DNA of 64,000 bases, taken from NCBI GenBank assembly GCA_020809705.1, contig CP085826.1, positions 6,696,001 to 6,760,000 of the forward strand, given 5' to 3'. A program made the position numbers and the translations under genes. The notes under the pieces are model-generated. The model was not told where the DNA came from. It made no database searches and was given only the letters and a program-made list of their open reading frames with translations. Shown here in pieces: positions 21,842 to 59,761 of the stretch. Position 1 is the first letter of the stretch. The number at the start of each line of letters is the position of its first letter. The stretch comes from Calonectria ilicicola (lineage: Eukaryota; Ascomycota; Sordariomycetes; Hypocreales; Nectriaceae).

Positions 21842-22484
21842 ACGGGACGTCCCTCTGGTGGGGGCTATTCGCTTCGGTATATAAGTTTTGGTCTCGCAGC
21901 ACCAGTATACGCAGGATGCTTAGCCAAGGAAGAGGATGTATTATCATTTAAAAAGGTCGGCGACCCGGACAAAAAAAACTTGAGCACAGCATTTGTGGCG
22001 ACACGGGTGTGGCATGCAAAAGGAAATGCATAGTAAGACAGGAGTACAGGAGAAGGCGGATGAGACTGGGCGTTCGCCCGAGTCAAATCGTTTTTGTTTG
22101 ATTTGCGAACATTCCGTTCATCATACCCCAGAAGCAGCTTGCAGATTGGATCGGATACTAGATTCGACAACGAAGGACATGAATTCGAAATGAACTATTT
22201 AATACCCCTCTATTTTTATTGCCTATTTAGACACCTGTGATGGCCTCGTGATGTTCTGTTCTGTGAAATTAATTTGCTTGAATACTGACCAGCAACGCCC
22301 TCGTTAAACTTGCCCATATATATTTCAAGTTGCCACCTGGTTCAATAATGGCGTGAAGGTACCAACAATAACGAAGGATAGCATGGCAATTATGAACCGA
22401 TTTGAGAGCTGTCCGTCTCTCAGCAATTCTACCAGGACCAAAAAGAAACAAGCACAAAAAGAAGGAGCCAAAGCATCCCAGCAA
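21842..22484. other. intergenic region
   Basis: 640 bp between the Pro-rich gene and the tRNA gene. Base composition shifts to AT-rich. No gene seen. Confidence 0.45.
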
Positions 22485-22581
22485 TGGACGAACAGGGAAT
22501 CGAACCCTGGACCACTCCCAAGCTCGCAGGACGTTCCTGCAACCATGCTAAGGGAGTATTATACCACTAAACCATTCGCCC
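22485..22581 (-). tRNA. tRNA-Ala(AGC) with 25-nt intron
   Basis: Read on the minus strand, a full cloverleaf folds. Acceptor GGGCGAA pairs TTCGTCC with a G3:U70 wobble, the main alanine identity element. The anticodon stem is CTCCC/GGGAG, the loop carries TTAGCA with U33 and anticodon AGC, and the T arm is CAGGG-TTCGATT-CCCTG. A 25-nt intron sits after position 37, at the canonical place; it contains its own hairpin GCAGGA-ACG-TCCTGC. The D arm (GTTTAGTGGTATAAT) looks more like tRNA-Gly and has a T:T mismatch. An oligo-T terminator follows about 25 nt downstream. Confidence 0.87.
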
Positions 22582-24240
22582 AGGCAATCTCTGAATCCTG
22601 TGGATCTGATTGGCCAGTGGGGAAAGGTAAGAGGTTGATATTCGCCTCGTCAGCATGCCAACCACCTGCTAGCTTGAATGGTTTCTATAGTGACCTAACA
22701 TCAATGATTCGCCATGCAAAGAGTCTTACGTAGGATTTCTTTTTGGTCAAATGCCAAGAGATTTTCGATTCTGTATGATCCAACCTCCTAGATCTCCGCC
22801 GGCCAGGAATTCGACGCCGACGTAACATCACTGCAATCAATCTAAGTATAGCAAACAGAGTGTTGAGTCTAAAAGTCTGACATGACCAAGTAGGTTAAGC
22901 GTATTGTCCAAGTATCTTGATGGCAATGATATGCATGGAGAACAAACAGGATCGAGCACGAAGCCTGAAAAGAGGCTATGGTTTATTTGCCCAGTGCAGT
23001 ACCTGGAAGGCAAGAAAGGCTGGCATATTAATCTAGTTTTCACTGATGAATCTGCCCAAGAAAATTTGCACATTTCTCATTCAGATCTTAACGCACTGAG
23101 GCGATATCGAATTATTAGATACTCCCCAGGTACCGTGCATTTTACGGAATGGGAGACTCTACCATTACTTTAACCACAGACTGCAGATTACAAAAGAAAG
23201 AAAAAAACAGAAAGTAAACAGTAGAAGCAGTTGTAAGCGTACTATGTTAATATAAGTGATAATTAATCCATTACTTGGCACAAACCGCTGGCGCCCGTCC
23301 GGCCATAGTTGTGCGGATCAAGCACTCTTACTGGCTGCTCCCGTTACGGAATTGTTCTAAGCCAAGATCTCCCAAGTCTAAAGTGGATTGAGGCCATCGG
23401 GATCTCCGTGTAGACATACTAGTAGTGTTTTTGGTGGCTTTGACAGCTTGAGTGCCAAGACCTACGGACGTGCCCAGAAAGTGTTCATGATTCGTGGAAT
23501 ATTTGGCAAGACCATTTGACATGTCACTTGTACAATATATTCAAGATCTGCATCGCTCATTAGCAGAACTCTAATACTGAAGTCAGCCCACGTTGTGTGA
23601 CCCAGGGTACGCGTTGCTTGTCGCAGGATCACAAGCTTGGATCACCAAGTAGCACGGTGCGCCGCGCCAATGGGAAAGTTCGGAAACAATACGACGCCAA
23701 GGATGAATAAACTCTTCGGAAACATGCTAGCATGACAGACGCTTGTTTCGACTTAAATTTGGTTTGTGGGGGCCTTCATTGGTGTCGCTGTGTTTGGTAT
23801 CTACCGAGAGTGAGGCGATCACGTCGTTTCTCTGGAGCCGTCTCCAGATTCCATTTACCCGCGTTTGGTTTAGATGAATTCTGGAATTTAGTCCCATCTT
23901 TTCATCTTGGTGAATACTGATATGCTGACTTTGTTTGGTTTCAGACCCATACTAACTTGTACACTTGACCATGCTTATCGATGGGAACGACCCTGCGTCC
24001 GTCTTGGCATCCTACAGCTCAGATCAATGGCAGAACCAGGGGTCAGCAGTAGGGGTCACGAAGGGTTAGCGAGATCTTCTACGGCCAATAGCATGCTTTG
24101 GCGGTCTCATTGGTGGTGGACCTTCCATAGCCCTGTCGGGCCGGGATCTTGGATGTCTTTAAGCTTGTAGACCAAGATTACAGAGGTTTCAGTAATGTGG
24201 AGTTGTAGAATTCGAACTTAAAGAAGAAGAAAAGAAAGGA
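22582..24240. other. AT-rich intergenic region, no gene supported
   Basis: 1.66 kb. A plus-strand frame ending at 23173 (from an ATG near 22931) could encode about 80 residues but has no recognisable domain. Nothing else is supported. The PL3 promoter begins at the end of this stretch. Confidence 0.4.
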
Positions 24241-51261: not shown

Positions 51262-53646
51262 ATGGGTCTCTCAACGATCCTTACCACTAGCATTGTGGCC
51301 CTGCGCCTCTTCGCTTCTACAGCAGTTGCTGCTCCCTCGATTTCTCTCAACATCGATCTTGGTGACACCAATGTCGACGCTGTTGTGAACGACGCTTACA
51401 CCAGCACCGCCGACTCCTCCTGGTGGCTCGCTTCCATTGAGCGCCGGGGGGCCCTTCCATTCAACGGATCCTCTAGCTACAAGATCTACCGCAACGTTGC
51501 CGACTATGGCGCCAAGGGTGATGGAAGCACTGACGACACTGCGGCCATCAACGCCGCCTTCTCTGACGGCAACCGTTGTGGACAGGGCTGCGACTCTAGC
51601 ACTGTCACTCCTGCTATTGTTTACTTCCCTCCCGGTACCTACGTCGTCTCTTCGCCTATCCTGCCCTACTACTACACCCACATGATCGGTGACCTCAAGT
51701 CTCTCCCCGTCCTCAAGGCTTCTGCTAGCTTCTCCGGAATGGCTGTCATTGACGCCAACCCTTACGTCGACGGCGTCAACTGGCACACCAACCAAAACAA
51801 CTTTTTCCGACAGATTCGCAACTTCAAGATCGACCTCACTGGTCTGCCCAAGACTACCGGTACTGGTATCCACTGGCAGGTTGCCCAGGCTACTTCTCTC
51901 CAGAACATTGACTTCGTCATGGTTGAGGATACTGCCGACGACAACGCCCAGCAGGGTATCTTCATCGACAACGGCTCTGGTGGTTTCATGACTGATCTTA
52001 CTTTCACTGGTGGAAAGTACGGTGCTTTCGTTGGTAGCCAGCAGTTCACCATCCGCAACATGACCTTCCGCAACTGCAACACTGCTGTCTACATGAACTG
52101 GAACTGGGCCTGGACCCTTGCTGGCCTGACCATTGACAGCTGCAAGGTCGGTGTCAACATGACCAACGGTGGCTCCTCCCAGGCTGTTGGCTCCATTGTC
52201 TTGATGGACAGCACCATCTCCAACACCCCCATTGGTGTCAGCACTCTCTACACCACTGGTCAGACCGACACCAACGGAACCCTGATCATCGAGAACGTTG
52301 ACATGAGCTCCAACGTCCCCGTCGCTGTCCAGAACGGCGGCACCGCGGCCACCATCCTTGCCGGTAACGCCAAGATCGATTCGTGGGCTCAGGGCCGTGC
52401 CTACAGCGGAAGCACTGGCAAGGCTGTCCAGGGTGCCCAGACTGTCATCACTAAGCCTGATGTTCTCCTCGACAGCGCCGGCCGAATTGTCACCAAGAGC
52501 AAGCCCCAGTATGCCGACATCAGCGCTTCTGCTTTCGTGTCCGTCAAGGCCGAGGGTGCTATGGGTGACGGTTCCACCGATGATACTGCTGCTATCCAGA
52601 AGGTCTTTGACAACATTGCCGAGGGTGAGGTTGTCTACTTCGACCACGGTGCCTACGTTATCACCGACACCGTCAAGGTTCCCAAGAACGTCAAGATTGT
52701 TGGTGAGATGTGGCCCCTCATCATGGCTGGTGGCAACAAGAACTTCAAGGACCAGAATAGCCCCAAGGCCGTCTGGCAGGTTGGTGAGAAGGGCGACACT
52801 GGCGATATCGAGATCCAGGACCTCATCTTCGAGACCCTTGGAGCTCAGCCCGGTGCCATCCTAATGGAGTGGAACGTTGCTGGCAAGACTGCTGGTTCTG
52901 CTGGCATGTTCGATGTCCACTTCCGAATTGGTGGCTCTGCTGGTACCCAGCTCCAGTCCAACACTTGCAAGAAGACTCCTGCCGTCACCACCACCCCCAA
53001 CGAGAGCTGCTTCGGTGCCTGGATGCTCATGCACGTCACCGCTGAGGCCTCTGTCTACCTTGAGAACGTCTGGTTCTGGGTTGCTGACCACGAGCTTGAC
53101 CTCGCTGATCACTCCCAGATCAACATCTACAACGGTCGCGGTGTCCTCATTGAGAGCACCAAGGGCTGCTGGCTCTGGGGTACGGCTTCCGAGCACAGCG
53201 TCCTCTACAACTACCAGTTCGACAAGGCCTCCAACGTCTTCATCGGCTTCGCCCAGACTGAGACTGCCTACTTCCAGGGCAATCCTGACGCCAAGGTTCC
53301 CTACACTGCCAACACCGACTACAACGACCCCGACTTCACCAAGTCTTGCACTGGTACCTCTGAGAAGTGCGCTCGTACTTGGGGTGTCCGTGCTATTGAC
53401 TCGAAGGACATCTTCTTCTACGGTGCCGGCCTGTACAGCTTCTTTAACAACTACGGCCAGACCTGCGTCGGTGAGAACAACTGCCAGGACAACATTGTTA
53501 GCCTTGAGAACTCCCAGGTTCACTTCTATGGCCTGAGCACCAAGGCCAGTATCAACATGATCAACGTTGACGGCACCTCGGTTGCCACTGACTCTGACAA
53601 CCGCAACAACTTCTGCGCCTCCATCGCTCTCTTCACCCAGTCCTAG
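51262..53646 (+). CDS. secreted exo-beta-1,3-glucanase, glycoside hydrolase family 55
   Basis: Single exon, 794 aa. Signal peptide of about 23 residues (MGLSTILTTSIVALRLFASTA). Two related beta-helix halves follow: YRNVADYGAKGDGSTDDTAAI at about 75-100 and SVKAEGAMGDGSTDDTAAI at about 425-445, a duplication typical of GH55. Other family landmarks: YFPPGTYVVSSPI, GIHWQVAQATSLQNI, AVYMNWNWAWTLAGLTI, WFWVADHELDL, GCWLWGTASEHSVLYNYQF and CARTWGVRAIDSKDIFFYG. GH55 enzymes cleave beta-1,3-glucan (laminarin, fungal walls). Likely uses: nutrient release, mycoparasitism or self-wall turnover; I cannot tell which. The antisense strand is also largely open, a shadow of codon bias. Strong bias to C-ending codons suggests high expression. 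Confidence 0.95.
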   Translation: MGLSTILTTSIVALRLFASTAVAAPSISLNIDLGDTNVDAVVNDAYTSTADSSWWLASIERRGALPFNGSSSYKIYRNVADYGAKGDGSTDDTAAINAAFSDGNRCGQGCDSSTVTPAIVYFPPGTYVVSSPILPYYYTHMIGDLKSLPVLKASASFSGMAVIDANPYVDGVNWHTNQNNFFRQIRNFKIDLTGLPKTTGTGIHWQVAQATSLQNIDFVMVEDTADDNAQQGIFIDNGSGGFMTDLTFTGGKYGAFVGSQQFTIRNMTFRNCNTAVYMNWNWAWTLAGLTIDSCKVGVNMTNGGSSQAVGSIVLMDSTISNTPIGVSTLYTTGQTDTNGTLIIENVDMSSNVPVAVQNGGTAATILAGNAKIDSWAQGRAYSGSTGKAVQGAQTVITKPDVLLDSAGRIVTKSKPQYADISASAFVSVKAEGAMGDGSTDDTAAIQKVFDNIAEGEVVYFDHGAYVITDTVKVPKNVKIVGEMWPLIMAGGNKNFKDQNSPKAVWQVGEKGDTGDIEIQDLIFETLGAQPGAILMEWNVAGKTAGSAGMFDVHFRIGGSAGTQLQSNTCKKTPAVTTTPNESCFGAWMLMHVTAEASVYLENVWFWVADHELDLADHSQINIYNGRGVLIESTKGCWLWGTASEHSVLYNYQFDKASNVFIGFAQTETAYFQGNPDAKVPYTANTDYNDPDFTKSCTGTSEKCARTWGVRAIDSKDIFFYGAGLYSFFNNYGQTCVGENNCQDNIVSLENSQVHFYGLSTKASINMINVDGTSVATDSDNRNNFCASIALFTQS

Positions 53647-54437
53647 AAAGCTGGGTATGGGCCCGATGCGCCGTGCCAGAATACCACCTACGATGACTAC
53701 AGAGTCTAGACCCATCTCCCCGTTTGCGGTGTGCAGCGGCTCCACGACCGTGACTTGCAAACCGTCACAGCCGTCGCCGCGACCTCCCCTCTCGGCATAC
53801 TGAACATAAAAAGGCGAAGGTGCCGACTGACGTACATATGAAATATTTACATCTGAAGGAGTCGCGGACAGAAGTTTGGTTCTTGTCGCTTTTTCTTTCA
53901 AGATTTTGAGTCCTCTTTTTTTTTATTATTTATTTCTAGCTCGTGTCCTTTCTACACCAATTTACCTCGATTTGTTACCGCCACTGACACAAGGGCCTTT
54001 TGAGCTTGATTTTTATTGGTTCTTGGTTTTCTTTTTTTTCAGAATTGGGTCACTGGAATGTGGAGTTTAGGATAGCAAACGAAGTGCCTGTGAGGCAGAT
54101 GGGTCGGGGCTCTGTATTCGGGAAGATACGTAGATGAAGTGAATGAAAACCTTCCCAAAAAATAACTTGTGTGTCTTGTGCAATGTGAATTCTGGGATCT
54201 CTTGGAAAAGTTTGAATGCAGACCCCTCCAATGCTGCGCTAGTTCATCATGGCTCAGGAGGTAGATGGTCTGATCTTCTTAAGTTGACGTGTGATGTAGT
54301 TATCTCAAGGGGAAAATAATTCACAACACAACCGCCAGACTCCTTAAAATTGTAAAAAGATTGAAACTTTGTTCCAGAGCGCTACAGGAGCGGAGGCTGA
54401 ACGTGGTCGAAACAATAACCTCCGTACCACCAACGCC
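53647..54437. other. region between GH55 and the small-RNA array
   Basis: About 800 bp. T-rich 3' end of the GH55 transcript, then mixed sequence. No protein gene seen. Confidence 0.45.
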
Positions 54438-54518
54438 AAAAAGAGATAGGAGACGGAGCATCCAGGAGAAACAGCAATTCCACTTCGGTGGTCTTGATGT
54501 TCGAAGCTACACCGCCAG
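54438..54518 (-). ncRNA. array unit 0, diverged small-RNA copy
   Basis: The 5' block is changed to TGGCGGTGTAGC and the 3' end reads CTCCGTC followed by TCCTATCTCTTTTT. GGCGG still pairs with CCGTC, so the closing stem is kept with different bases. TATATA (54540-54545) keeps the 27-nt spacing, preceded by CCCT as in other units. The B-box position holds GTTTCGACC, a weak match. Possibly a decayed or specialised copy. Confidence 0.5.
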
Positions 54519-55013
54519 CGGGCGGAAGATTTATTTTGCTATATAAGGGAACCTGCAGGATGACAAGGATGTACATGCAGGCCTGTGGGACATGACTGCA
54601 GGTTGTCGAGGCCCAAGCAACAGACACTACCTGGACTGATAGCGCTGTAGAAGACACCTCATCTGGCATGGACACAAAGAAATATTAGTGAACATTGTGA
54701 ATGGTATGTTTGTCAATAGATGTTCCCTCTCCAGACCTCTTAATGAACACATCGGGTTTATTTTATTCTTCCTAGTACACGAAACAAAATGTCGATTGTG
54801 CCATCCAGAACCGAAGATTTAAGACGGAGGACCTCGGTACACAGTGTTGAAACAGAGGACAAGCAGTAATTTCAAAACATAGAACAAAGTCAGCCTTAAT
54901 GTGAAGGGAGAATAAAAATGGTATGTTTAATTTTTCCAGGAAGGAAAAGAGAAAAAAAAAAAGAAGATCTGGCTGGGATTGAACCACGGACGTGGGAAAT
55001 GGGTAACCAAGCC

Positions 55014-55115
55014 AAAAAGAGAAAGCGAAGGAATCTACCTCCTCACCGAGGTAGATCGAGTCAGGAATTGTAGTCATAGATATGGTAAACTGTTAAGCCA
55101 TTTGCTACTTCGCTG
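55014..55115 (-). ncRNA. array unit 1
   Basis: About 102 nt. The closing stem AGCGAAG/CTTCGCT is intact. A 9-bp hairpin ATCTACCTC/GAGGTAGAT (55033-55056) with loop GGTGAG sits directly before the 3' block. T run TTTCTCTTTTT ends it. B box GTTCAATCC at 54976-54984. CATATGATAAAG is the TATA-position element. Confidence 0.75.
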
Positions 55116-55447
55116 AAAGAGGACAGTATTACTTTATCATATGAAGGGCCTTTGGGATGATGAGATGAGTTGTGGTTGGATGCCGGGACGAAGTGGAGTC
55201 GTGGTGGCGTCGCGGTGTGACTAACACGCCGAACGACTGCCTTGTTGTCTGCGATCAGCACTGAGCAGATGATGGGAGGAAAACTAGATCATCAAAGCGA
55301 GACAGGAAAAAATCAGTTGTAATCTTGATGTATTTAATTACGTGCGCAAAAAAAGTTGAATCATTAGATCTTAGGGAAGCAATGTAGCAGCTGTCATTGC
55401 TTCGAACATGCATCCCCAATTCTAGCTGCAAGACCAAAAAGACAACC

Positions 55448-55525
55448 AAAAAAGGAAACGAAGAGGGTAAGCCCCTGAGGGACGAATTTTAAAGTTTAGG
55501 CTATTAAGAGAAGGCTACTTCGCTG
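55448..55525 (-). ncRNA. array unit 2
   Basis: About 78 nt, shorter body. Closing stem AGCGAAG with CTTCGTT uses a G:U pair. One weak hairpin CCC-TCA-GGG (55473-55481). TTTTTT terminator. TGATAAG at the TATA position; B box GTTCGAAGC at 55399-55407. Confidence 0.72.
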
Positions 55526-55784
55526 AATTGCTGGCAATTAGAACAGCTTATCAAGGCATCACCGTAGGCCTCCAAAGAATGGAGGGGGTAGGTACGGTAG
55601 CCTAATTGCACTGAGGGAGACTGGGGAAACGACAAAGAGTAAGGTCATAGATAATATTAGGAGAAGAAATAAACCTAGGTAGAGAAGGGGGAAAAATGAT
55701 TTCAACACATGGACCAAGGTGGTAAAATAAGTGTAATTGCATTGAGAGTGGTCTCGAACGCCCATCAACCTCACTACAAACGGC

Positions 55785-55849
55785 AAAAAGAAAACGAAGA
55801 AGGAATGAGAGAGCGACGGCAGATCTAATAATATGTAGCTACTTCGCTA
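55785..55849 (-). ncRNA. array unit 3
   Basis: Shortest unit, about 65 nt. 5' block TAGCGAAGTAGC; closing stem with CTTCGTT (G:U). I see no strong internal hairpin. TTTTTAGG at the TATA position (55872-55877 region); B box GTTCGAGAC at 55751-55759; terminator TTTTCTTTTT. Confidence 0.68.
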
Positions 55850-56101
55850 AAGCCAGCAGGATTAAACCGACCTAAAAGGGCAGGGCCCATGGGATGATCT
55901 CAGCCAAGGTCAGCATGCACGCTAGGGCTTCTCCGAACGCGGCGTACACAATGAGAAGAAATGTCAAGATTCGATCGATGAAAAGAAAATGCCATCGATT
56001 ATTCCCTACGCGAAGAAGAAAAAGATAAAACATACATGCCAAAAAAATGTCATGGCAGACAAACGGCTGAGAATTTGGTTCGAACTGAAGCCCTCGCGAG
56101 C

Positions 56102-56225
56102 AAAAAGCGAAGGCTTCCTTTCGGAAGAGTAATGGGGGTTTCTCGTAAGAGAATTTGGGTGGATTTCAATCAGTGATTGATGATCCCGCCACTGGGTGGC
56201 TGACAGTATTACAGCTACTTCGCTG
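56102..56225 (-). ncRNA. array unit 4
   Basis: Longest unit, about 124 nt. Hairpin TTCTC-TTAC-GAGAA (56140-56153) and hairpin CTTCC-GAAA-GGAAG (56114-56127) with a GNRA loop. Closing stem AGCGAAG/CTTCGCT, TTTTT. TATATA 28 nt upstream; B box GTTCGAACC at 56077-56085, only 16 nt past the T run. Confidence 0.8.
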
Positions 56226-56518
56226 ACAGTCAGAGGAATTAAACTGGTATATAAGCATGTCGTTGCTTGGCATTTGGGATTGGCTGGGGCTGGGTGGCTG
56301 GTGGGGGCCAGTACTACGAGAATGGTAAAAGTTGGAGGCGAGATATCGATGATGCAAGAAAAAAAAGAATGTATAGACATAGATGGCTAGATGATAAATA
56401 GAGACTCGATATCTAGAAGGAAGAGAAAACAAAAATGGATAAAAGGGGAAATAATTCCAGAATGACCTGCACGTTTCGAACCAACCTGCTTCTCAATGTT
56501 CTCGTCACCCAAAAAGGC

Positions 56519-56624
56519 AAAAAGCGAAGGCTTCCTTCCGGAAGAATGGTTTAGTCCCAAGGGGACAGAATCCAATGGTCTTAAATGGGCCACAGGGTGG
56601 CAATTGGTTTAAGCTACTTCACTG
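56519..56624 (-). ncRNA. array unit 5
   Basis: About 106 nt. 5' block CAGTGAAGTAGC; the C-to-T change turns a C:G pair of the closing stem into U:G. Hairpins GTCCC-CTT-GGGAC (56554-56566) and CTTCC-GGAA-GGAAG (56531-56544), the latter GNRA-looped. TATAAG 28 nt upstream; B box GTTCGAAAC at 56473-56481. Confidence 0.82.
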
Positions 56625-56839
56625 GGAGCATGCAACTTTGAACCGGCTTATAAGGGTGTTGTTGCCTAGTGTTGTAGAGTGGCTGGGCCATGGGGCTGAG
56701 AGTGGCGCCAGCCGAGAACACAACCAACACTGAATACAAAATGGCGAGAACAAAAGGAAAGAAAAGATTCACATTGAGTAATAAATTATCTGTAGATGAG
56801 ATGAATATGGAGCAACTAAAAATGAACTGAAAAGGAACA

Positions 56840-56872
56840 AAGAGAGAGAGAGAGAGAGAAAAAAAAAAAAAG
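56840..56872. repeat. AG microsatellite and poly-A
   Basis: AG dinucleotide run followed by about 13 A. On the minus strand this gives a strong T tract after the B box of unit 6. Confidence 0.8.
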
Positions 56873-56932
56873 GCGGGGGATCATCTCTTTGTTTCGAACT
56901 CGGTGCTCTCTGATGTTCTCTCCAAAAAGGGC

Positions 56933-57034
56933 AAAAAGCGAAGGCTTCCATGTGGAAGATAGGTTTTAGTCCGGAAAGGACCCTTAGAGTTTGAAATTAG
57001 GCCACGAGGGCAAATGGTTACGGCTACTTCGCTG
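56933..57034 (-). ncRNA. array unit 6
   Basis: About 102 nt. Hairpins GTCC-TTTCC-GGAC (56969-56981) and CTTCC-ACAT-GGAAG (56945-56958). Closing stem AGCGAAG/CTTCGCT, TTTTT. TATGAG 28 nt upstream; B box GTTCGAAAC at 56891-56899. A 13-T tract follows past the B box, so a longer transcript is also possible. Confidence 0.82.
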
Positions 57035-57113
57035 GGGGATGAACGTATTGAACTGGCTCATAAGGGTACTGTTGCCTAGCGCTCGCTGGGTACTGCAGTG
57101 GCTGGAACTGGGG

Positions 57114-57163
57114 CTGGGGATGGTGGTTGAGTGGCGCTGGGGATGGTGGTTGAGTGGCGCTGG
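57114..57163 (+). repeat. 23-bp tandem duplication
   Basis: Two exact adjacent copies of a 23-nt unit beginning CTGGGGATGG, plus a 4-nt partial third, in the spacer upstream of unit 6. Confidence 0.85.
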
Positions 57164-57358
57164 CCTACAACAAAAGACGAGCAGGACCAAAAACCAGATG
57201 ATGAGAATAAAAGAGCTTGTTTGCTAAGGAATAAAATGACCGTCTCATAATATGATTGAAATTAAACGAAAAAAAGAATAAAAGAAAATCACACCGGAGA
57301 ATAATATCTTCATTTCGAACCAGCATACTTTTGGGGTGTCCAGGTTGTCCAAAAGGGC

Positions 57359-57443
57359 AAAAAGCGAAGGCTTCCCGAATGACGCAGATTTTAATGTTCC
57401 CGAAGAAACTGGACTGGTGGTTGTTTACACAGCTACTTCGCTG
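57359..57443 (-). ncRNA. array unit 7
   Basis: About 85 nt. Hairpin GTTTC-TTCG-GGAAC (57396-57409) carries a C(UUCG)G tetraloop. The second hairpin before the 3' block is weak here (only TTC/GAA). Closing stem AGCGAAG/CTTCGCT and TTTTT. TATAAA 27 nt upstream, the best TATA of the set; B box GTTCGAAAT at 57312-57320. Confidence 0.8.
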
Positions 57444-57954
57444 AAGGCTGAACAATTAGACCAGTTTATAAGGGGCACTACTTGACCGCTTTAGTCTCAT
57501 GTGGCTGATCATTGAGATGAGATGCTAGGTGGGTGACTAAGAAACAAGGCATCATGCGCCCACAGCATGAAGTGATCCGATAATAAATCGGTGCGATTAA
57601 CACGGACAACGAATATAAACCTAATAGCTATATTAAAATGAAACTGTGATTTATTTGAAATATTTTTCATTTTTATTTGAATTTTTCTGATTGCCTCAGG
57701 ACAAGTTTGGTTGCTGTGCCATGTAATTTGTCACGTGAGATGACTTGGGCTTCGGCGACCAACACCATCCAGCACAGTTATCGACAAGCAGCACGTATCG
57801 ATCAATGACCGGGAAAGGTTTTCAACGAAGGAGATGCTGTGGGAGAGTTAGGGAAGAGGCATTTATAAAATCATCATGAGAAAAATATTCTGCAAAAAGA
57901 TATTACGATTTCGAACCATGTGGCAATTAATGTTGACGCGTGCCGAAAAGATGC

Positions 57955-58058
57955 AAAAAGCGAAGGCCTCCTTGCGGAGGCAAATTCTGACTTGTGGTCA
58001 CGAGTGACCACCAAACCAAATCTCAATAGAAATACTGTATGATTTCGCTACTTCGCTG
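57955..58058 (-). ncRNA. array unit 8
   Basis: About 104 nt. Perfect hairpin GTGGTCAC-TC-GTGACCAC (57994-58011) and GCCTCC-GCAA-GGAGGC (57966-57981) with a GNRA loop; relative to other units the second stem has paired U:A to C:G changes. Closing stem AGCGAAG/CTTCGCT, TTTTT. TATGTA 28 nt upstream; B box GTTCGAAAT at 57908-57916. Confidence 0.82.
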
Positions 58059-58090
58059 GGAGCTGTTGGTTCAGCTTTGGTACATAAAGT

Positions 58091-58726
58091 CTTTGACAGG
58101 GGGCGGGATGTTGCTGGGGTTGTGACAGACTGTGACTCAGCCGGCCAGGTAAATTGTGCTGTGCCATGTTATGCGGTGTTATGTCCAAAGGTATTAGCCC
58201 AAGTACAGGAAAAGTGATTGTGCATAATTTTAGGGCCCTACTTCGTTCTTAGTGCAAATGGCTTGTTTTTAGGCGTCGTTGTTGGTTATCCCAAGTGCAC
58301 AAGGTTGAATGGATAAAAAGTAGCCCCGCGATCCGGCCAAAGCAAACTGCAAAATTTGAGGGGCACCAAGTTCCGAAAGTCTCAAAAGGAACACGATGGA
58401 TCGCCTGGGAAATAATATCCGCTATCAACCTCAGAGGGTGATCTAATTTCCCAATTGCTGTCTTGTTCACAGTATGGTTCCATCCTGTTCCAGCTGCTTC
58501 ACATGCTGGCCCTCGGAAGTTCGTTCCACCGCGGCCGGCCCTCCCGGTGCGACAATGCCCACAATACACGTAGACGTCATAGGTGGCAGCTCCTTCGTCG
58601 CATGCGCACCCTTCATGCCCAATTCTTAAGGTCTCGCACAATCCAAGCTTCCTGGCTTCTCGGGCCAGCCAAATGAGGCATTGAGGCCGACCTATCCTTT
58701 TTCTATCCTGTTATTAGGGCCCTCAA
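58091..58726. other. region between array and FIT2 gene
   Basis: About 640 bp. At 58236-58250 the minus strand reads AACGAAGTAGG, like the array 5' block, but no closing 3' block or good TATA is found, so it may be a relic. Otherwise the FIT2 promoter. Confidence 0.4.
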
Positions 58727-59761
58727 ATGGCCACGGCTCGGCGCGCCGCCAATTTGGCATCCTCCCCCTCCACCGACGAAACCATGGCGACGCCGACAGC
58801 TTCATCCACGACCACACGCCACTCGCCCTTTTTGCCAACACCTCTCGAGCGAGTCTGCTTGTCGTTGTTCCCGATAATACTTGTTTTCGGCACCCTCTTC
58901 TCAATAATCTCCCCCGACATACGATCATCGCATTATGATCCCGTCTCGCAGTCACACTCGCAGGACCCCGCTGCCGCGCCGAGCTACTTCGCCCGCAAGT
59001 CCAATATCTTCAATGTCTTCTTCGTCAAGCGCGGCTGGGCATGGTTCACCATCTCTTTTGCCACATTCCTCTTCACTCACCCCAGCACCACTGCTGGGAC
59101 GCGACGACTACGTGCTGGACTGCGATGGGCCGCCGTCACCACGTTGTGGATTTTTGTCACCCAGTGGTTCTTTGGAGCTCCCATCATTGACCGTAGTTTC
59201 CGGTGGACCGGTGGTAAATGCGAGCTCGCACAGCGCCAGGTGACTATGGGCGATACGAGCGTTGGTGAAATGGTGACGGCAGTGGCATGCAAGGCTGCCG
59301 GTGGAAAATGGAAAGGCGGCCATGATATTTCCGGTCATGTCTTCATGTTGACACTCGGTACTGTGTTCTTGATGCAGGAAGTGGGATGGGCCATCACCAA
59401 ATGGTCTGGCTGGCAGTCCGAGGAGAGGTCCGTTATTATGGATGACGGCGCCTTGAAAAGTGCCCATATTGAAGCTGATGCGCCCGCTGGTGAAGGTTCA
59501 GGTAAGCCAGCTCTAGGCGCTGGTGCCAAGTTCGCCATCGGTGTCATGGGGCTCAGTGTCTGGATGTTATTGATGACTGCGATTTACTTCCACACATGGT
59601 TCGAGAAGGTAACATATCCTTCAATTATATTCCTCGAGCATAAAGCTAATTATTCGCAGTTTACAGGACTTTTGACCGCAGCTTCGGCATTATACATCGT
59701 ATACATCGTGCCAAGATTCGTTCCAGCAGTCAGAAAAGTTTTAGGTGTCCCAGGAGTTTAG
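58727..59761 (+). CDS. scs3: FIT2/Scs3-family ER membrane protein (lipid-droplet biogenesis)
   Basis: Exons 58727-59608 and 59660-59761, 327 aa. A 51-nt segment between them (GTAACA..CTAAT..TTCGCAG) is open in frame but removing it joins FEK to FTGLL, which fits family sequences, whereas the retained text does not. Several hydrophobic helices are present (PLERVCLSLFPIILVFGTLF, WAAVTTLWIFVTQWFFG, FAIGVMGLSVWMLLMTAIYF). HDISGH and the later His in YFHT are the two catalytic His positions of FIT2, an acyl-CoA diphosphatase in the ER that supports lipid-droplet and phospholipid balance. The start is the first ATG (MATARRAANL). Confidence 0.92.
   Translation: MATARRAANLASSPSTDETMATPTASSTTTRHSPFLPTPLERVCLSLFPIILVFGTLFSIISPDIRSSHYDPVSQSHSQDPAAAPSYFARKSNIFNVFFVKRGWAWFTISFATFLFTHPSTTAGTRRLRAGLRWAAVTTLWIFVTQWFFGAPIIDRSFRWTGGKCELAQRQVTMGDTSVGEMVTAVACKAAGGKWKGGHDISGHVFMLTLGTVFLMQEVGWAITKWSGWQSEERSVIMDDGALKSAHIEADAPAGEGSGKPALGAGAKFAIGVMGLSVWMLLMTAIYFHTWFEKVTYPSIIFLEHKANYSQFTGLLTAASALYIVYIVPRFVPAVRKVLGVPGV

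Follow-up and report, generated by a model that had tools for sequence, protein, structure and literature searches.

A tandem array of probable pol III genes for stem-closed small RNAs in Calonectria ilicicola

In fungi, few transcripts of RNA polymerase III (pol III) other than transfer RNA (tRNA), 5S, U6, RNase P and signal recognition particle (SRP) RNA are known. A row of short minus-strand units was found in a stretch of 64,000 nucleotides of Calonectria ilicicola (contig CP085826.1, C2:6696001-6760000; hereafter the window), whose genome of 69.9 Mb is assembled in 12 contigs. These units are probably genes of an unrecognised family of structured small RNAs, made by pol III and closed by a stem. 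If this is true, they would represent a new class of fungal RNA, a family in tandem whose ends are constant and whose bodies diverge, with promoters of the SNR6 type.

Y RNAs are made by pol III and have a closing stem formed from both ends, and the RNAs of the array are likewise predicted to be closed by a stem of their two ends. The array gave no match to an Rfam Y RNA model, and no match to Ro60/TROVE was found in the genome, in a search whose control was positive in 1 of 14 genomes. Vault RNAs are pol III RNAs of about 100 nt with several paralogues, an A/B-box promoter and a central domain by which a paralogue can be told apart (PMC11012908). The array RNAs are also predicted pol III products of about 100 nt, with several paralogues and with a B box and a degenerate A-box-like element, whereas the boxes A and B lie inside the human vault RNAs (PMC11012908) and the B box of the array lies outside. 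No Rfam vault RNA model hit the array, and Major Vault Protein had no match in the genome, although the control genomes were silent too. Membership of the units in the vault or Y RNAs is not supported.

In yeast SNR6, the TATA element is located at -30, box A at +21, the terminator at +109 and box B at +233 (PMC2667510). The array units resemble SNR6 in having a TATA-like element near -30, a weak internal A-box-like sequence, a T-run as terminator and a B box past the terminator; they differ in not encoding U6, in the shorter distance to the B box (+91 to +143 versus +233) and in the position of the A-box-like GTAGC, which begins at +8 instead of +21. Among fungal pol III RNAs, the microRNA-like RNAs (milRNAs) milR-1 to -4 of Neurospora share with the array a T cluster and TATA-like elements (PMC3547838). 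Unlike the array, they are stem-loop precursors processed mostly by Dicer, and the excerpts of that paper mention no tandem array of alike ends. The motifs of Li and Breaker (2017; PMC5640933) are likewise fungal structured RNA candidates; they are mostly gene-associated motifs, ribozymes and snoRNA-like RNAs, and the word 'tandem' occurs 0 times in the excerpts of their text.

Units of the array and their putative promoter elements

The direct results of the analysis are the sequence elements and their spacing, the predicted folds, the dispersed relatives, and the lack of an Rfam match and of a repeat. Eight minus-strand units (58058 to 55014) have in common the 5' block [C/T]AG[C/T]GAAGTAGC and the 3' arm CTTCG[C/T]T. 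The preliminary description of this locus, made from the letters alone, had given the shared 5' block to nine units; CAGCGAAGTAGC with at most one mismatch is indeed found in eight of the nine, and the ninth (54516-54438) has GGCGGTGTAGC instead. The units are as follows, with lengths counted to the end of the T-run, P as pair probability and z as folding stability relative to shuffles:

57955..58058, minus strand, U1 predicted RNA, 104 nt; CAGCGAAG...CTTCGCTTTTT; closing stem P 0.98, plus hairpins; z -5.3
57359..57443, minus strand, U2 predicted RNA, 85 nt; closing stem, 5-bp 3' hairpin not found; z -0.3
56933..57034, minus strand, U3 predicted RNA, 102 nt; closing stem, CTTCC/GGAAG hairpin; z -1.25
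56519..56624, minus strand, U4 predicted RNA, 106 nt; stem AGTGAAG/CTTCGCT with one G-U; z -2.3
56102..56225, minus strand, U5 predicted RNA, 124 nt; z -4.2
55785..55849, minus strand, the U6 unit (not U6 small nuclear RNA, snRNA), 65 nt, ending with T5; TAGCGAAG...CTTCGTTTT; closing stem P 0.21; z -0.25
55448..55525, minus strand, U7 predicted RNA, 78 nt; CAGCGAAG...CTTCGTT, then T6; closing stem P 0.93; z -0.4
55014..55115, minus strand, U8 predicted RNA, 102 nt; 10-bp 3' hairpin, CTTCGCTTTCTC then T5; z -2.0
54438..54516, minus strand, U9, probably a divergent unit; GGCGGTGTAGC and T5; closed by another stem, of 5 bp; without the shared 5' block

The eight starts (58058, 57443, 57034, 56624, 56225, 55849, 55525 and 55115) are separated by 615, 409, 410, 399, 376, 324 and 410 bp, with a further 599 bp to the start of the ninth at 54516. 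This agrees with the spacing of mostly about 400 bp reported before, as do the lengths of 65-124 nt and the lack of a protein gene among the units, the longest open reading frame with an ATG in 53902-58726 having 124 aa. In the U6 unit an earlier T4 ends at 59. In U9, a TATA-like element is present together with GTAGC, T5 and a sequence like a B box, and the 5' end differs from those of the other units; because the shared 5' block is missing and the closing stem is different, it is regarded only as a probable unit, and the counts of eight array units or 11 family members given here are made without it. The U6 unit, U7 and U9 may be decaying. Upstream of U1, AACGAAGTAGGGCCC at 58233-58247 on the minus strand is a possible decayed unit, where the covariance model described below gave no hit up to E 10.

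A composite pattern, AG(C/T)GAAGTAGC followed after 25-115 nt by CTTCG(C/T)TT, matched eight times in the window, always on the minus strand, and in none of 200 dinucleotide shuffles of the window. The 11-mer AGCGAAGTAGC alone is not rare, with 23 places genome-wide against 53 for its reversed control, which is the point in favour of a mere chance resemblance among unrelated spacer sequence. The evidence therefore lies in the clustering, since seven of the 23 places fall within 3 kb in the array, and in the co-occurring elements. Given eight composite matches against 0 in the shuffles, all on one strand and co-located with TATA-like element, T-run and B box, the probability of such a coincidence is close to negligible.

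The putative promoter elements were found at the following positions:

58080..58088, minus strand, U1 TATA-like zone TTTATGTAC, -30 to -22
57465..57473, minus strand, U2 TATA-like zone CCTTATAAA
57056..57064, minus strand, U3 TATA-like zone CTTATGAGC
56646..56654, minus strand, U4 TATA-like zone CTTATAAGC
56247..56255, minus strand, U5 TATA-like zone CTTATATAC
55871..55879, minus strand, U6-unit TATA-like zone CCTTTTAGG, weak
55547..55555, minus strand, U7 TATA-like zone CTTGATAAG
55137..55145, minus strand, U8 TATA-like zone TTCATATGA
54538..54546, minus strand, U9 TATA-like zone TTATATAGC
57907..57917, minus strand, U1 B box GGTTCGAAATC, lying past the T-run
57311..57321, minus strand, U2 B box GGTTCGAAATG
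56890..56900, minus strand, U3 B box AGTTCGAAACA
56472..56482, minus strand, U4 B box GGTTCGAAACG
56076..56086, minus strand, U5 B box AGTTCGAACCA
55749..55759, minus strand, U6-unit B box GTTCGAGACCA
55397..55407, minus strand, U7 B box GTTCGAAGCAA
54975..54985, minus strand, U8 B box GGTTCAATCCC
54403..54413, minus strand, U9 B-box-like sequence GTTTCGACCAC

A TATA-like element lies at about -30 to -22 in every unit and is weak in the U6 unit. The oligo-T end claimed earlier was recovered as a T-run of 4-6 at the 3' arm or at most 6 nt from it in all eight units, and as T5 in U9. The B box is also present in all eight, and B-box-like in U9, but it was not found inside the RNA: it starts at +91 to +143, 15-40 nt past the T-run, and thus lies outside the predicted RNA. 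Five of the eight B boxes read RGTTCGAA, those of the U6 unit and U7 have another first base, and that of U8 has GGTTCAA. GTAGC at +8 to +12 is kept in all eight units and matches the start of an A box, the remainder of which is degenerate in the array.

Dispersed relatives and an apparently intron-borne B box

Three relatives are dispersed in the genome, namely D14 (C5:1345444 +), D21 (C11:3427798 -) and D30 (C2:7145267 +), the last on the contig of the array at a distance of about 390 kb. With them, the family would number at least 11 genes of pol III type. The relatives came up in searches with the 5' block and were selected for having an A box, a T-run or a B box; the 3' arm is exact in D21 and D30 and has one mismatch in D14. 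A covariance model built from U1-U5 recovered the held-out U8 (E 0.006), U6 unit (E 0.04) and U7 (E 0.07) in the window and, in a set of 16 loci chosen beforehand by the 11-mer, scored D21 at E 0.0017 and D14 at E 0.002. A TATA-like element is also present in D14 and D30, D21 having only TTATC, and the full A-box sequence TAGCTCAGCGG occurs only in D21. The order of T-run and then B box holds for the eight array units, U9 and D14, and not for D30 and D21.

Several simpler patterns were counted in the genome together with reversed controls. GCGAAGTA and CTTCGCT, 25-86 nt apart, occur together at six places, which are D21, D30, U1, U2, U3 and U8; since the reversed controls also give six, the count is unremarkable by itself, and what is noteworthy is that all six are family members. 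The version with CTTCGTT at 25-55 nt has four places (control five), the U6 unit, U7 and two without GTAGC in the matched letters, while CTTCGCT followed by GGTTCGA has 16 (reversed control 44), among which D30 was the sole member on inspection. CAGCGAAGTAGCTCA with at most two mismatches has 128 places (reversed control 125), of which four are array units besides U8, while 30 loci (including D14, D21, D30 and U8) and 46 others were screened. No further member was found among the near-matches screened, and as these are only part of the 128, three relatives are a lower bound.

In D30, a stretch of 43 nt directly after the 3' arm CTTCGCT contains GTAAG, the B box GGGTTCGA, a branch-point-like ACTAAC/TACTAAC and a final TAG. 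The same order is seen in the two U6 snRNA genes found on C1 (L024, C1:6580508 +) and C3 (L025, C3:884181 +), both of which hold an intron-like stretch with a B box (GTAAG...GGTTCGA...CTAAC...CAG). The TATA of the C1 gene is at -30, counted from a 5' end of U6 snRNA that was placed by a motif, and that of the C3 gene is at -22 with the chosen start; from the start of TTATA to the shared CATATGG the distance is 41 nt upstream in C1 and 39 in C3. The pattern GTAAG..CTRAC..YAG occurred in 93 of 40000 random 120-nt stretches (77 other loci), with GGTTCGA inside in 0. None of the eight array units, nor D14 or D21, showed an intron-like stretch of this type. Judging from these signals, the B box of D30 would apparently be removed from the RNA by splicing, so that the B box may be kept out of the RNA in two ways, by early termination where a T-run precedes it (array, D14) and by apparent splicing in D30. 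If this is true, D30 would carry an intron that apparently serves a pol III promoter outside U6.

Searches against known families were in line with the earlier statement that the family is unrecognised. Comparison with Rfam gave no match in the array at gathering thresholds. At E up to 10, only one hit was obtained in 54000-58700, to snR107 with 18.2 bits (gathering 44), and this candidate was rejected as sub-threshold and located in a spacer. A C/D or H/ACA snoRNA was also rejected, with RTGATGA in none of the eight units, CTGA in two (U5 and U8) and ACA near the end in none. In the excerpts of open-licence literature searched, the family is not described and the string AGCGAAGTAGC occurs only under titles on other subjects.

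The presence of A and B boxes and a 5' block that resembles the 5' end of a tRNA (7 nt, then TAGCTCA in D14 and D21) would suit remnants of a tRNA-derived short interspersed element (SINE) or another repeat, and tRNA-related SINEs have been described in Aspergillus fumigatus (PMC5063351). However, a genome-wide DNA search returned only U3 besides U4 itself when U4 was the query, and only the array itself when the whole 3.7 kb of it was used. This search is coarse, as it missed D14, D21 and D30 and skips simple repeats; within that limit no repeat of the kind that could have overturned the preliminary description was found. In addition, ARAGORN, run with the bacterial code, found no tRNA at 16 exact non-array loci of the 11-mer or in the 10-kb neighbourhoods of the three relatives. 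A tRNA or tRNA-derived SINE was rejected on these searches, as neither a tRNA body nor multicopy dispersal was found, and an origin of the units from such repeats is very improbable.

Predicted structure and competing explanations

The ends of the predicted RNAs pair into a closing stem of 7 bp (six pairs in D14). This stem was predicted in 10 of the 11 members with a mean pair probability of 0.76-0.98, the exception being the U6 unit. The complementary 3' block CTTCGCT/CTTCGTT of the preliminary description is accordingly retained for the eight units, but not for U9, which has another 5-bp stem, and in the U6 unit its closure is in doubt (P 0.21). G-U pairs occur in the closing stems of U4, the U6 unit and U7, the last two closing via CTTCGTT with one G-U.

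A hairpin of at least 5 bp stands 0-1 nt inside the 3' arm in seven of 11 members (U1, U3, U4, U5, U8, D14 and D30), in a search that allowed a gap of 0-2 nt; none was found in U2, the U6 unit, U7 and D21. Its letters vary: GCCTCC/GGAGGC, CTTCC/GGAAG (three units), GATCTACCTC/GAGGTAGATT, GCCCC/GGGGC and GTCCT/AGGAC. Shuffled bodies yield such an adjacent hairpin in 2-8%, and with U3-U5 counted as one, five of nine at a rate of 0.083 correspond to a binomial probability of 4e-4. The predicted folds of D14 and D30 also have an AAACA..TGTTT pairing in common.

Several results weigh against genes for stem-closed structured RNAs. Formal covariation in a six-member alignment was not significant, 89 of 500 shuffles being as good, and the closing stem hardly varies. 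Folding is about 2 sd more stable than in shuffles only in U1, U5, U4 and U8; U2, U3, the U6 unit and U7 are no more stable at 2 sd (z -1.25 to -0.25), and in the U6 unit the ends are not predicted to pair. The A box of the array is degenerate. Among the relatives, D30 is scored by the U1-U5 model only at E 0.13 and 0.44, D21 carries T5 ahead of its 3' arm, and in both D21 and D30 the interval from 3' arm to B box contains no T-run. Moreover, the conservation is that among paralogues of one genome.

Precursors of milRNAs characteristically fold into a single extended hairpin, with at least about 20 bp. The units could be such precursors, made by pol III and cut by Dicer or other nucleases, with a piece of about 20 nt entering Argonaute. 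Several units have predicted hairpins, the genome contains two long Piwi-domain matches above the cut-off (Argonaute-type genes), and in Neurospora milR-1 to -4 depend on pol III and share a T cluster, with TATA-like elements that matter for milR-1 (PMC3547838). On the other hand, the longer units are predicted to fold into multibranched structures whose stems do not exceed 10 bp, with no single long hairpin, and milR-1 is without a predicted A or B box, although a figure legend in the excerpts marks putative ones within milR-1 to -4 (PMC3547838). We consider milRNA precursors an unlikely explanation. A third, partial Piwi match is located at C12:277210-277527 on the minus strand (35 bits, one TGA inside), C12 being the shortest of the contigs seen.

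In yeasts, repeated TFIIIC sites are known to act as boundaries, and nearly all units of the array retain both a TATA-like element and a B box. The array might then act at the DNA level, as a row of TFIIIC/TFIIIB sites forming an insulator or chromosome-organising clamp, with the RNA as a by-product. Nevertheless, three features fit the RNA level instead: the closing stem is kept including its G-U versions, the adjacent hairpin differs in sequence from member to member, and the intron-like stretch of D30 would take the B box out of the RNA. A role of the DNA alone is decidedly unlikely in view of these features.

Proposed mechanism and genomic surroundings

The best reading remains that of the preliminary description, a tandem array of unrecognised small structured RNA genes, and it is supported; to it are added the TATA element, the SNR6-like external B box, the three relatives, the second hairpin and the apparently intron-borne B box of D30. 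Transcription of the units, binding of La and every functional step are what we infer. For genes of this kind, TATA-binding protein (TBP)/TFIIIB would bind the TATA-like element near -30, and TFIIIC the weak A box (GTAGC...) together with the B box that lies past the gene, as in the case of yeast SNR6. The transcript would begin at about the C of CAGC and end in the T-run right after the 3' arm, and termination ahead of the B box would leave the latter absent from the RNA. The 7-nt ends would pair as the closing stem, often with a hairpin of 5-10 bp against it, and La protein may hold the U-rich 3' end. Stem-closed ends could thus serve as a common handle for stability and protein binding, while the differing, hairpin-bearing bodies may provide each member with its own partner or target.

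The origin of the array can be partly traced. U4 and U3 match at 74% over about 170 bp and are clear paralogues, and U5 shows a weaker similarity to U4, upstream and in the body. U5 is thus a paralogue at a greater distance, and duplication accounts for at least part of the growth of the array, after which the bodies would have diverged while promoter and ends were kept. If so, the array would be a natural experiment in the diversification of an RNA body under a fixed promoter. More tentatively, the family may be a fungal set of stem-closed RNAs made by pol III, functionally comparable to the vault and Y RNAs and of independent origin, in which the closing stem is the shared handle, duplicated members diversify their hairpin bodies, and the B box is excluded by termination (array, D14) or by an intron (D30, as in the U6 genes).

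The array is flanked by a beta-1,3-glucanase-like gene (51262-53646, plus strand; best solved relative 5m5z) and, on the other side, by a FIT-family gene (58727-59761, plus strand). Elsewhere in the window, a tRNA gene of 99 nt is located at 22484-22582 on the minus strand (Rfam 51.9 bits); its anticodon was left unassigned by ARAGORN in the bacterial setting, and it likely contains an intron.

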